Under the pieces are notes generated by a model. That model made no database searches. It was not told where the DNA came from and saw only the letters and a list, made by a program, of their open reading frames with translations. A DNA stretch of 64,000 bases from Pseudooceanicola endophyticus (GTDB taxonomy: Bacteria > Pseudomonadota > Alphaproteobacteria > Rhodobacterales > Rhodobacteraceae). Every line of letters starts with the position of its first letter. Position 1 is the stretch's first letter. Below, in pieces: positions 2,297-6,116 of this stretch. A program made the translations under genes and the position numbers. The stretch covers positions 434,001 to 498,000 of the forward strand of contig NZ_JAHIAB010000002.1 in the NCBI RefSeq assembly GCF_018760365.1, given 5' to 3'.

Positions 2297-2803
2297 ATGA
2301 AATCGACCCCCGCATATATCCTGCGGAACTGCGCCCTCTGGGCGGATGAAGACATCAAGGTGGGGCAATTCTCTTCGGTCAGCATCCAGCTGCCCAAGGC
2401 CACCACCGAGAAATTCCGCAACGGCGGCATGATCAAGGAACGCCAGGTGGTGATGGGCTATGAGGTCGGGGACATGACCTTCAAGCTCACGGCCTTCGAT
2501 CCGGCCACGCTGAAGCTGCTGACCGGCAAGGCGGGCACCGAACACGCCTTCATGGTGACGGGTGCCCATGTGGACGAAGACGGCACCACCCATTCGGCGG
2601 TCTATTACGTGCGCGGCCAGCTGATCGCGCCGGATGCGGGCGACTGGCAGCCGGGGCAGAAGGCCGAAACCGACTGCACCGTGGCGGTGAACTACGCCAA
2701 GCTGGAAATCGACGGCGCGGACATTTTCGAAATCGACGATTTCGATTATTCCGTGGGCGGGGTCAGCCAGACCGGCGACATCGCTAACGCACTGCTGATC
2801 TGA
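2297..2803 (+). CDS. Phage major tail tube protein (P2 gpFII-like)
   Basis: The 168-residue product forms the inner tube that the sheath surrounds. The opening (ILRNCALWADE, residues 6–16) and the central segment (MGYEVGDMTFKLTAFDP) are characteristic of the FII family, as is the length. The ATG has an AGGAGAC ribosome site 5 bases upstream. It lies between the sheath and chaperone genes, the standard P2 order. Confidence 0.92.
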   Translation: MKSTPAYILRNCALWADEDIKVGQFSSVSIQLPKATTEKFRNGGMIKERQVVMGYEVGDMTFKLTAFDPATLKLLTGKAGTEHAFMVTGAHVDEDGTTHSAVYYVRGQLIAPDAGDWQPGQKAETDCTVAVNYAKLEIDGADIFEIDDFDYSVGGVSQTGDIANALLI

Positions 2804-2816
2804 GGGAGGGCAGGAC

Positions 2817-3128
2817 ATGAAATTCCCTGTGCGCGTCCCCCTGAAGACGCCGATCAAGGACGCCGACACCGACGCCGAAATCACCGCCCTGGTGTTCGAG
2901 GAACCCGACATCGGCCTGAGCATCGAAGTCGAGGACGCCGAAACGCCCCGCGACCAGATGTTCATCCTGCTGGCGGGCATGGCCGGGATCGGTATCCCGA
3001 CCTTCAAGCGGCTGAAGGAAAGCGATTACCGGGCCGTCATCAAGCAGGTGCTGGACCCCTATAACGCCCTGCAGGTGGCGCGTGCCGCAGAGGACGGGGT
3101 GGGAAACGCGGGGGAGGCGGCGACCTAG
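2817..3128 (+). CDS. Phage tail assembly chaperone, short form (P2 gpE-like)
   Basis: The 103-residue product corresponds to the upstream, zero-frame member of the E/E+E′ (lambda G/GT) chaperone pair, which loads the tape measure and recruits tube subunits without entering the virion. It begins MKFPVRVPLKTPI and is acidic overall. Its position between tube and tape-measure genes is diagnostic even though sequence conservation in this family is low. The last eleven codons contain a −1 slippery heptamer, so a fraction of ribosomes should extend into the downstream frame. Confidence 0.8.
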   Translation: MKFPVRVPLKTPIKDADTDAEITALVFEEPDIGLSIEVEDAETPRDQMFILLAGMAGIGIPTFKRLKESDYRAVIKQVLDPYNALQVARAAEDGVGNAGEAAT

Positions 3129-3151
3129 CGCAGGATCTGCGCTTCGCCGCC
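3101..3151 (+). promoter_or_regulatory. Programmed −1 ribosomal frameshift signal
   Basis: G GGA AAC occupies 3101–3107 in the correct zero-frame phase (codons GTG GGA AAC), which is the X XXY YYZ pattern. Eight bases later GGCGGCG (3116–3122) can pair with CGCCGCC (3145–3151), giving a 7-bp all-G:C stem in the expected place for a stimulatory structure. Slippage moves the ribosome into the frame that stays open to the stop at 3272–3274. Slippery site, spacing, structure and gene context all agree. Confidence 0.85.
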
Positions 3152-3274
3152 GCCTTCGTGGCCCGCGCCACCTGCACCCCGCTGCCCGAGATCCTGCGCA
3201 TGAAGGTTCCGGCCTTCCTGCGCTGGCAGGAGGCGGCGCAAGAGGTCTGGAAGCTGGATCACCCGCAGGGCTGA
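3107..3274 (+). CDS. Tail assembly chaperone, frameshift extension (E′/T-like)
   Basis: This frame has no start codon of its own at the expected place and is reached by −1 slippage at 3101–3107. It adds about 55 residues, including DLRFAAAFVARAT and EILRMKVPAFLRWQEA, a segment typical of short tail-assembly partners preceding the tape measure. The fusion would be about 152 residues. The extension, by analogy with lambda T and P2 E′, should contact the tube subunit. Expression level and ratio are not visible from sequence. Confidence 0.75.
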   Translation, partial: RGGGGDLAQDLRFAAAFVARATCTPLPEILRMKVPAFLRWQEAAQEVWKLDHPQG

Positions 3275-3490
3275 TCAGTCATCCGACAGGGGGTGCTGAA
3301 AGGCGTTCAGGCGGTCGCGCTTCAAGGGGCGCGGCTGCCCGCTGTCGCGGGTCGCCAGCCGGTAGACCCCGAACAGCATCAGGGCAAAGACCAGCCCGCC
3401 AAGCCAGCCCGACACGAACCAGACCAGAGCGACCGCGCCGCAGGCGAGAGCGATCATGATCACGGCAAAGACCATCGCGAAAATCTCCAT
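3275..3490 (-). CDS. Small two-helix membrane protein, antisense inside the tail operon
   Basis: The chosen start (MEIFAMVFAV) gives 71 residues: two hydrophobic helices at about residues 3–25 and 26–43, then a basic, cytoplasmic-looking tail ending RDRLNAFQHPLSDD. A longer frame starts at 3577, but that would overlap the tape-measure start. The gene exactly fills the space between the chaperone extension (stop 3274) and the tape measure (start 3540), and its stop codon abuts the chaperone stop. Opposite orientation inside a late operon suggests a lysogenic-conversion or superinfection-exclusion gene, but no family is recognised. Confidence 0.55.
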   Translation of the reverse strand: MEIFAMVFAVIMIALACGAVALVWFVSGWLGGLVFALMLFGVYRLATRDSGQPRPLKRDRLNAFQHPLSDD

Positions 3491-3539: not shown

Positions 3540-6116
3540 ATGGTGTCCAAGCGGATCGAAACGCAGCTGACCATCAAGGCGGTGGACCGCTACAGCGGCG
3601 CGCTGAAACAGATGGCCACGGTCACCGGGCGCTTTGCCGAGGACGTGCGCAGCGAAATGGGCCGCCTGCAGCAGATGCGCGGGCCATTGCGGCTGATCGA
3701 GGATTTCCGCAAGCAGCAGGCCGTGACCCGCGAAAGCGCGGCCTCCCTGGACCGTGCCCGGGAACGGGTGCGCCAGCTGAAGCTGGAAATCACCACCACC
3801 GCGAACCCCACGCAGGCCCTGCGCCGGGAATTCGACAGCGCGCGCCGCGCCGCCGACCGGCTGGAACAGAAACACGGCCAGAACCGCGCCACCCTGCGCG
3901 GGCTGCAGTCGCAGCTGGAACAGGCAGGCGTCAAGACCCGCGACCTGGCCGGGGAACAGGCGCGGCTGTCGGCAGCGCTGGATCAGGGCACCACCGCCTT
4001 CGGGCGCCAGATGCAGAAGATGGAACGCCTGGCGCAGGCACAGGAGAAGATCGCGGCGGGCCGTCAGCGGATGGAACGCACGCTGGCAACCTCTGCCAAC
4101 CTGTCGTTCACCGGCATGGCCTCGCTTGGCACCGGGCGGCGCATTGCCACGTCGCTGTCCAATCCGATCAAGCAGGCCGTGGACTTCGAAAGCGCCATGG
4201 CGGACGTGAAGAAGGTGGTGAACTTCGACGCGCCGGATGGGCTTGCGAAGATGTCCGACGACATCCTGAAGATGTCGGGCCGCATCCCGATGGCGGCAGA
4301 GGGCATCGCGGCCATCGTCGCGGCGGGCGGGCAGTCCGGCCTGAAGACCGAGGAACTGACGAAGTTCGCGGAAATGGCCGCCAAGGTGGGCGTGGCCTTC
4401 GACATCAGCGCCGAGAAATCCGGCGATGCCATGGCCAGCATCAAGACCGCCCTGGGGCTGTCGCTGGACGATACCGGCAAGGTCTTCGACGCGATCAACC
4501 ACCTGTCGAACAACATGGCGTCCACTGCGCCGAAGGTGCTGGACTTCATGACCCGCGCCGGATCGGCGGGGCAGCAGGCCGGGTTTTCGGCGGACGAAAC
4601 CCTGGCCATCGGGTCGGCCATGATCGCCGCCGGCGCGGAAGCGGATGTGGCGGCCACGTCCTTCCTGAACATGGGCCGGGCGCTGACCAAGGGCAATTCC
4701 GCCACCGACCGCCAGTCTGCCGCCATGCAGAAGCTGGGTCTGAACACGGTGACGGTCGCCAAGCGGATGCAGAAGGATGCCACCGGCACGCTGGAAGACG
4801 TGCTGATGCGCATCAACAAGATGCCCGACTACATGCGCACCAGCATCATCAGCGACATCTTCGGGGATGAGGCGCGGGCGCTTGGCCCCCTGGTCGGCAA
4901 CGTCGATCTGCTGCGGCAGGCCCTCGGGCTGGTGGCCAAGGAAAGCAATTTCGCGGGCAGCGCATCGCAGGAATATGCCGTCCGGGCTGAGACGACCGCC
5001 AACAACCTGCAGCTGATGCACAACAAGGTCGACCGCCTCGGGATCACCCTGGGCGAAGTGCTGATCCCGCCCATGAACGACCTGCTGGATCGGATTGCGC
5101 CGATCATCGACGGGCTGACGGAATGGACCAAGGTACATCCCGGCCTGACCCGCTACATCATGGCCGGCGCGGCAGCGACTGCCGGGCTTGCGATCACGGG
5201 CGGGCTCCTGATGAGCGCTGCCGCCGGGCTGATCGGCACCCTGGCGGTGCTGCGCTTTGGCCTGGTGGGGCTGGGGGCGCGGTCGGCCCTGGTCGCGGGC
5301 GAGGTCGGCGGCGTCGGGCGCGCCTTCGGACTGCTGCTGAAGCTGCCGAAGTTCGCCCTGTCCAGCCTGATCACGCCGCTTCGCTGGGGCACGGCGCTGT
5401 TGCCGAACTTTGCCCCCGGGCTGGCCCGGTTTGCCGGGTTCCGCCGCGATGCCACCGACCAGATGACCCGCCTGGAACGGTCCGTGGCGAGCAAGTCCAA
5501 GGCCATGCAGGCCAGCCTGAATTCCATCAAGTGGGGGGCGTTCAGTGCCGGTGCCATGGCCTTCCTGGCGATGAGGAACCTGCCCGAGGGGGCCGAGGCG
5601 CAGGCCGAATTCCGGCAGCAGAACCGCGAGAAGATGGACAACACCTTCCGCAACATGCCGGTGCTGGGCTGGGCGATGGGCAAATACGAGGACGCGGTAA
5701 CCGCGGTGCATGGTGCGCCGCCGGGGGACGGGGTGGCGGGTGACAGCGCGGGCGCCCTGCAGCAGCGGGCGCGCGGTGGCCCCTTCGGCCCGAGGCCCCT
5801 GCTGGTGGGGGAGCGGGGGCCGGAACTGTACTTCCCGAACCGCTCTGGCTTCATCGCCACGAATCGCCAGCTGCAGGGCCTGCAGGCGGCGGTACAGGGC
5901 ATCCGCATGGCGGGCGCGGCGGCGGTTGCCGCCTCGGTCGCAGCCGCCCCAGTGGCCGCTGCCACGCGGCCCTCGGATGGTCTTCGGATCGAAATCAACA
6001 GGGTCAACATCACGGTGCCGTCGGGGATCAGCGATCCCGAAGCCATCGTGGACCTGATGGAAACCCGGCTGGGCGACCGCCTGGCGGCCACGCTGCAGGC
6101 CAGCTTTGCAGACTGA
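3540..6116 (+). CDS. Phage tail tape measure protein (TP901 type)
   Basis: The 858-residue product sets tail length and passes DNA and itself into the cell. It has a long charged coiled-coil N-terminal third (about residues 15–190), then the TP901-1-type core with FESAMADVKKVV near residue 220, then a hydrophobic helix-rich stretch at about 535–585, and a Gly/Ala-rich C-terminus with a conserved-looking VGERGPELYFP segment near 765. It is the largest gene of the tail block, directly after the chaperone pair. Confidence 0.92.
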   Translation: MVSKRIETQLTIKAVDRYSGALKQMATVTGRFAEDVRSEMGRLQQMRGPLRLIEDFRKQQAVTRESAASLDRARERVRQLKLEITTTANPTQALRREFDSARRAADRLEQKHGQNRATLRGLQSQLEQAGVKTRDLAGEQARLSAALDQGTTAFGRQMQKMERLAQAQEKIAAGRQRMERTLATSANLSFTGMASLGTGRRIATSLSNPIKQAVDFESAMADVKKVVNFDAPDGLAKMSDDILKMSGRIPMAAEGIAAIVAAGGQSGLKTEELTKFAEMAAKVGVAFDISAEKSGDAMASIKTALGLSLDDTGKVFDAINHLSNNMASTAPKVLDFMTRAGSAGQQAGFSADETLAIGSAMIAAGAEADVAATSFLNMGRALTKGNSATDRQSAAMQKLGLNTVTVAKRMQKDATGTLEDVLMRINKMPDYMRTSIISDIFGDEARALGPLVGNVDLLRQALGLVAKESNFAGSASQEYAVRAETTANNLQLMHNKVDRLGITLGEVLIPPMNDLLDRIAPIIDGLTEWTKVHPGLTRYIMAGAAATAGLAITGGLLMSAAAGLIGTLAVLRFGLVGLGARSALVAGEVGGVGRAFGLLLKLPKFALSSLITPLRWGTALLPNFAPGLARFAGFRRDATDQMTRLERSVASKSKAMQASLNSIKWGAFSAGAMAFLAMRNLPEGAEAQAEFRQQNREKMDNTFRNMPVLGWAMGKYEDAVTAVHGAPPGDGVAGDSAGALQQRARGGPFGPRPLLVGERGPELYFPNRSGFIATNRQLQGLQAAVQGIRMAGAAAVAASVAAAPVAAATRPSDGLRIEINRVNITVPSGISDPEAIVDLMETRLGDRLAATLQASFAD

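Follow-up and report, generated by a model that had tools for sequence, protein, structure and literature searches.

The 64,000-nt stretch of DNA analysed here (the window) begins inside a prophage tail operon with the gene order sheath-tube-E-E'-tape measure-U-X-D. The tail sheath gene (1041-2219) is followed by the tail tube gene of the P2 FII type (2297-2803, plus strand; Pfam PF04985 Phage_tube, E=4.4e-28), and the tape-measure gene (T) lies further downstream at 3540-6116 on the same strand (PF10145, E=6.4e-42; phrog_28, E=1.2e-118). Two overlapping reading frames are found between the tube and the tape-measure genes, as is characteristic of tail assembly chaperones. The first of them, E (2817-3128, plus strand), encodes a zero-frame product of 103 aa that matches PF10109 Phage_TAC_7 (E=0.0042) and the phrog_166 tail protein (E=0.0005). 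With 17.5 bits, the window E scores below the PF10109 cut-off of 25 bits, whereas a scan of 9 relatives gave 33.0-55.5 bits, above the cut-off in every case. The second frame, E' (3107-3274, plus strand), is a −1-frame extension that would contribute 55 aa after a slip.

The codons of E begin at positions divisible by 3, which places the heptamer G GGA AAC (3101-3107, plus strand; pattern X XXY YYZ) in phase, with GGA at 3102-3104 and AAC at 3105-3107, so that a slip by −1 changes the pairing from GGA AAC to GGG AAA. Direct reading of the codons therefore confirmed the phase given in the preliminary description, which had proposed a −1 programmed frameshift site in the tail assembly chaperone. 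On the plus strand of the window, GGGAAAC is found at two places, 3101 and 47029. Behind an upstream TAA at 3062-3064, the −1 frame stays open from position 3065 to the stop at 3272-3274, also as previously described, and the predicted E+E' fusion has 97 + 55 = 152 aa. The zero-frame stop of E (TAG, 3126-3128) is located within a predicted hairpin on the same strand. The 7-bp all-G:C stem reported 8 bases past the heptamer (3116-3122/3145-3151, GGCGGCG/CGCCGCC) is exact, and the minimum-energy fold lengthens it to 8 + 7 bp: it adds the pair A3123-U3144 to complete the lower stem (3116-3123/3144-3151), followed by a 3-nt bulge (3124-3126) and an upper stem (3127-3133/3137-3143) closed by a 3-nt loop. 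A further hairpin base could form between 3110-3114 and 3153-3157. The fold has an energy of −43.1 kcal/mol (z −3.4), and 2 of 200 shuffled sequences were equally low. Six nucleotides before the heptamer, the sequence AGAGGA (3089-3094, plus strand) is a weak candidate for a Shine-Dalgarno-like stimulator.

The AlphaFold model of E' consists of three helices (pLDDT 86.6). The window E' matched no Pfam or PHROG family at E 0.1. Within a set of 23 E' sequences, two matched the phrog_6416 tail protein (best E 0.0016) and one matched PF06528 Phage_P2_GpE at E 0.084; the window E' had no match to the latter. Alignment of E' with P2 E' by hhalign was weak (probability 66%, 27% identity over 30 columns). 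A structure search with the E' model gave no significant match (best E 0.56 for viral entries and 9.6 for the PDB). The third-ranked Foldseek match was a 48-aa protein of phage D108 (TM 0.77/0.90, rmsd 0.9 Å, E 0.6), whose UniProt entry, judging from phage and length, is probably that of 41.5. In D108, the 48-aa 41.5 is flanked by 41 and the tape measure, a position like that of E', and the description of PF10109 covers protein 41 of Mu-like phages.

A direct search with E found nothing in genome contigs and nothing in phages; IMG/VR returned the same phage, and the genomes of the family returned 2 of 394, one of them being its own genome. Since E proved too divergent as a query, the tube protein was taken as the anchor for relatives. 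The analysed set comprised 106 loci, namely 26 loci plus 80 kept out of 94, leaving aside 23 further places as well as 63 phage and 9 plasmid records, from which L003, Paracoccus phage Pyei1 and one Agrobacterium plasmid were viewed singly. L003, obtained from the search of family genomes with E, was the first relative with a conserved site (its E is 42% identical) and is by sequence the same phage as L045. A profile of E' built from 51 distinct −1-frame peptides, chosen as seeds because they had GGGAAAC, matched 102 of the 106 loci, which collapse to 87 distinct regions. The profile did not match L065, L066, L095 and L138, of which L065 nevertheless has GGGAAAG in phase.

A canonical X XXY YYZ heptamer was found in phase in 84 of the 87 distinct regions (83 by script, plus L109), a number that should not be read as a tally of independent events, since the regions are related. 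GGGAAAC is present in 68 regions; the counts given below for 67 regions refer to the scripted set, to which L109 adds one. The remaining in-phase heptamers are GGGAAAG, CCCAAAC, CCCAAAT, CCCTTTG, CCCTTTC, TTTTTTC and TTTTTTT, i.e. the phase is kept as the heptamer changes. A few of these other heptamers could be due to chance where the frame overlap is long. Across the 67 GGGAAAC regions, a heptamer falls in phase at 7 of the 7186 remaining codon positions of E and at 5 of 11072 positions of the tube gene. The glycine codon of GGGAAAC is by definition GGA, which makes up 44 of the 504 other Gly codons of E; the tube gene uses it for 34 of its 1106 glycines. Different codons precede the site (TTG, CTG, GCG, TCG, GTG, ATG and CCG), all ending in G because the heptamer requires it. 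The base following GGGAAAC (3108 in the window) is G in 65 of the 67 regions, and the first residue in the −1 frame is consequently Arg. The distance from the heptamer to the E stop is 3-36 nt, likewise in 65 of 67; the E stop about 20 bases past the site in the window, previously presented as an oddity, is therefore correctly placed but usual. Thus, the proposal of −1 programmed frameshifting in the tail assembly chaperone gained strong support from the relatives.

The hairpin has a narrower distribution. We compared a close group of 22 sequences, comprising eight named records (Phaeobacter, Ruegeria and Thioclava among them, which we take to be Rhodobacterales), the phage of the window itself, and viral contigs assigned to the group by their sequence. 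In a register of 12 pairs, standard pairs occupy 240 of 264 cells (90.9%), in comparison to 30-51% when the register is slid; the register was set by hand after the sequences had been seen, which favours it, and 8-pair and 12-pair versions were counted. The window keeps 10 of the 12 pairs, with its lower stem in register (six of its eight pairs belong to the 12) and its upper stem pairing better in another, whereas L045 breaks 5 of the 12. The mean folding energy of the close group, scanned at 26 offsets, is lowest at the site (−21.9 kcal/mol), and none of 200 synonymous-codon shuffles of the 22 sequences was as stable, a comparison that treats related sequences as independent. By these alignments, the lower part of the hairpin is common to the close relatives. 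Among 43 other GGGAAAC sequences, mostly of the rhizobial type, 29 of 200 such shuffles were as stable; this group of others (45 sequences in the energy scan, 43 in the shuffles) includes L087, which over 80 nt does not differ from one of the close-group sequences. The 55 nt downstream of the P2 site have no unusual fold (z about −1). We conclude that the hairpin, more stable than in shuffled sequences in the close group but not in the other GGGAAAC sequences or in P2, is a local addition rather than a defining part of the site. The preliminary description had regarded lack of conservation of heptamer and stem in relatives as evidence against the site: the heptamer is conserved, but the stem is conserved in the close group only.

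This distribution raises the question of whether the hairpin contributes to a genuine frameshift or is an idle by-product of the G+C-rich coding sequence. The latter reading is consistent with the finding that neither the 43 other sequences nor P2 fold with excess stability, and with covariation that is modest: both sides change in 2 of the 12 pairs, and letter shuffles attain the covariation score in 79 of 500 cases and the number of pair types in 498 of 500, so pair types are no more numerous than in shuffled sequences. Single-locus z values range from +0.4 to −2.2, and RNAalifold alone gave weak consensus structures. On the other hand, the energy minimum at the site, the shared register of the lower stem and the failure of all 200 synonymous shuffles to match the 22 close sequences argue for a function. 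We consider an idle hairpin unlikely, but deserving of real weight, and favour a hairpin that probably stimulates frameshifting in the close group. An upstream stimulator is only suggested: in the 22 close sequences the predicted duplex with the anti-Shine-Dalgarno sequence has a group mean of −5.39, versus −2.78 (sd 2.43) elsewhere in E, and 16% of the background positions reach the group mean, which is not decisive.

If E' were a separate gene, expressed by re-initiation or from its own start near the E stop, a start codon would be expected in its frame. In the window, the first ATG, GTG or TTG of the −1 frame is at 3158, inside the conserved E' peptide, in agreement with the earlier description of the downstream product as start-less; the frame also has an unusual CTG at 3137. 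In the stretch tested, which runs from the stop upstream as far as 30 nt inside the core, no ATG, GTG or TTG is present in 73 of the 87 regions and some start is found in 14. E' is thus a conserved second frame without an ordinary start, as in other tail assembly chaperones. Moreover, in 19 of the 67 GGGAAAC regions the −1 frame is closed at most 12 nt upstream of the heptamer, so that the change of frame must take place at or after that point. Differences between close E' sequences fall on codon positions 1/2/3 in the numbers 1670/1247/2942 (equal-length pairs, pooled and non-independent), a pattern that marks E' as selected as a protein. A separate E' gene would also leave the conservation of the heptamer unexplained, and the regions lacking starts refute it as the general case; we therefore regard it as very improbable, despite the 14 regions with a start and two exceptions that favour it. 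The first is Pyei1, whose record annotates E' as a separate 'hypothetical protein'. The second is L051/L088 (Tropicimonas; two records resembling one phage), which lack a heptamer and have a longer E (126 aa), whose stop shares bases with an E'-frame GTG (GTGA). This is the sole distinct region with neither a heptamer nor a G-run, and its sequence fits stop-start coupling in place of the slip, as a single case.

The ATG of the Pyei1 E' (L148, 3255-3443) overlaps the E stop, and upstream of it GGGAAAG is in phase at 3255-3261, so both routes to E' may exist in this phage. In a related record with an incomplete gene table, no gene is listed at E'. The other two of the three regions without a canonical heptamer, L134 and L058/L127, have ATG GGG GAG at the matching place and a conserved E'; the run of five G may serve as their slip site, and a motif named 'five' appears among those for backward phage frameshifts in the passages retrieved from PMC10885494.

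Two further explanations of the frame change can be set aside in favour of ribosomal slippage. Transcriptional slippage needs a long homopolymer, and although L142 has a run of seven T at the heptamer, the longest runs in the window heptamer are GGG and AAA, making it an extremely remote prospect. A decayed gene, with the two frames produced by a frameshift mutation or a sequencing error, is suggested by the facts that prophages decay and that adjacent frames are commonly read as a split gene, but is refuted by the relatives, in which the −1 relation and the in-phase heptamer recur in 84 of 87 regions of several genera and E' differences are biased to third codon positions, so that its probability is close to nil.

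In the window, the stop of E' abuts (TGATCA) that of a convergent small membrane-protein gene of about 71 aa on the minus strand (3275-3490, to 3577 with an upstream start). Of the 21 other members of the close group, tblastn detected this gene in 20 (E <= 1.1e-5, 38-57% identity) and missed it in L081, whose sequence ends soon after E'. The C-terminus of the protein resembles LNAFQRPLSDD, and differences at codon positions 1/2/3 number 2906/2173/4765 (153 ungapped pairs). No PHROG was matched at E 0.01, and Pfam matches were all below cut-off. In most rhizobial-type relatives, the start of the tape-measure frame is at most a few bases away from the E' stop. The counter-oriented membrane-protein gene, kept in a late tail operon, could represent a moron that the lysogen expresses.

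We also considered a second lysine tRNA (CUU) as the reason for AAC over AAG. This idea was dropped, since typing of 51 of the 53 host tRNA genes (matches of 81 and 87 nt fell outside) revealed a single tRNA-Lys(UUU) and none with CUU; with this tRNA set, slippage would be expected at an AAG-ending site as well. The host encodes tgt, the queuosine enzyme.

The mechanism is the same as in lambda G/GT, with by analogy a similar role, and the window heptamer is closer to the slippery site of lambda, which we take to be G GGA AAG, than to that of P2, although lambda is a siphophage, unlike the P2-order prophage studied here. Passages of PMC5009743 describe lambda gpG and gpGT as two products linked by a low-level −1 shift in a ratio of 30:1, G_GGA_AAG as highly shift-prone in Escherichia coli, and G_GGA_AAC as among the shiftiest sites with mammalian ribosomes and as a site in a haloarchaeal virus. 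The pre-tape-measure chaperone of Caulobacter phage Colossus has the same GGGAAAC in an alphaproteobacterial host (passages of PMC3556154); Colossus is a phiCbK-type siphophage. The −1 frameshift of P2 E/E+E' was reported by Christie et al. 2002, as cited in passages of PMC3931495 and PMC3091744. P2 shares with the prophage the gene order FI-FII-E-E'-T-U-D, the −1 relation and a short C-terminal E' extension ahead of the tape measure, and differs in lacking the tail X gene that lies here between U and D. Product sizes are 91/142 aa in P2, according to passages of PMC3091744, versus 103/152 aa here. The P2 record has T TTT TTG as the slippery site, whereas the window has G GGA AAC, and the same passages describe P2 as having no downstream hairpin and such structures as rare at phage sites of this kind, in contrast to the hairpin found here. 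Sites of the T7G and T7C types appear in passages of PMC3931495 for P2-like Stenotrophomonas and Xanthomonas phages. Given the published sites of lambda, Colossus and P2-like phages, the kind is well known; among the literature matches listed, including those in PMC8601537 and PMC10783043, none describes the site in P2-like phages of Rhodobacterales. The statement that all features agree with P2 and lambda thus holds for mechanism and gene order, but not for the P2 heptamer and hairpin. In mechanism the site belongs with P2 E/E+E' and lambda G/GT; its heptamer differs from that of P2, and it has an added hairpin.

Taken together, the site in the window is almost certainly the programmed −1 ribosomal frameshift site of the tail operon of a P2-order prophage. 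Most ribosomes would translate E as far as its TAG (3126-3128) and produce the 103-residue chaperone. A fraction, probably held by the hairpin 8 nt past the heptamer, would slip one base back with tRNA-Gly and tRNA-Asn on GGA and AAC, re-pair on GGG AAA and go on from CGC at 3107 to give the 152-residue E+E'. By analogy with lambda G/GT, many copies of E would bind the tape-measure protein, the rarer E+E' would recruit tube subunits, and the ratio of the two would matter for tail assembly. The sequences show the site and its phase, their conservation, an E' that lacks an ordinary start and is selected as a protein, and a hairpin common to close relatives; beyond this, we infer that slippage takes place at some rate, is stimulated by the hairpin and serves such a division of labour.

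For annotation, the consequence is that E' should be recorded as having no ordinary start of its own. A broader reading, which we put forward as speculative and rather doubtful, is that within one alphaproteobacterial P2-order lineage the signal is modular: the heptamer would follow an AAC-ending rule, the close group would have gained a hairpin enclosing the E stop, and at least one member (Tropicimonas) would have lost the slip site and made E' by stop-start coupling, so that E' would work there as a free protein. Were this reading true, it would offer directly testable cases in which nature has replaced the fixed E:E+E' ratio. The slip sequence, the hairpin and the stop distance vary among the 87 regions while the −1 frame is kept, which makes the set useful for studying what sets tail-chaperone frameshifting outside E. 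coli.
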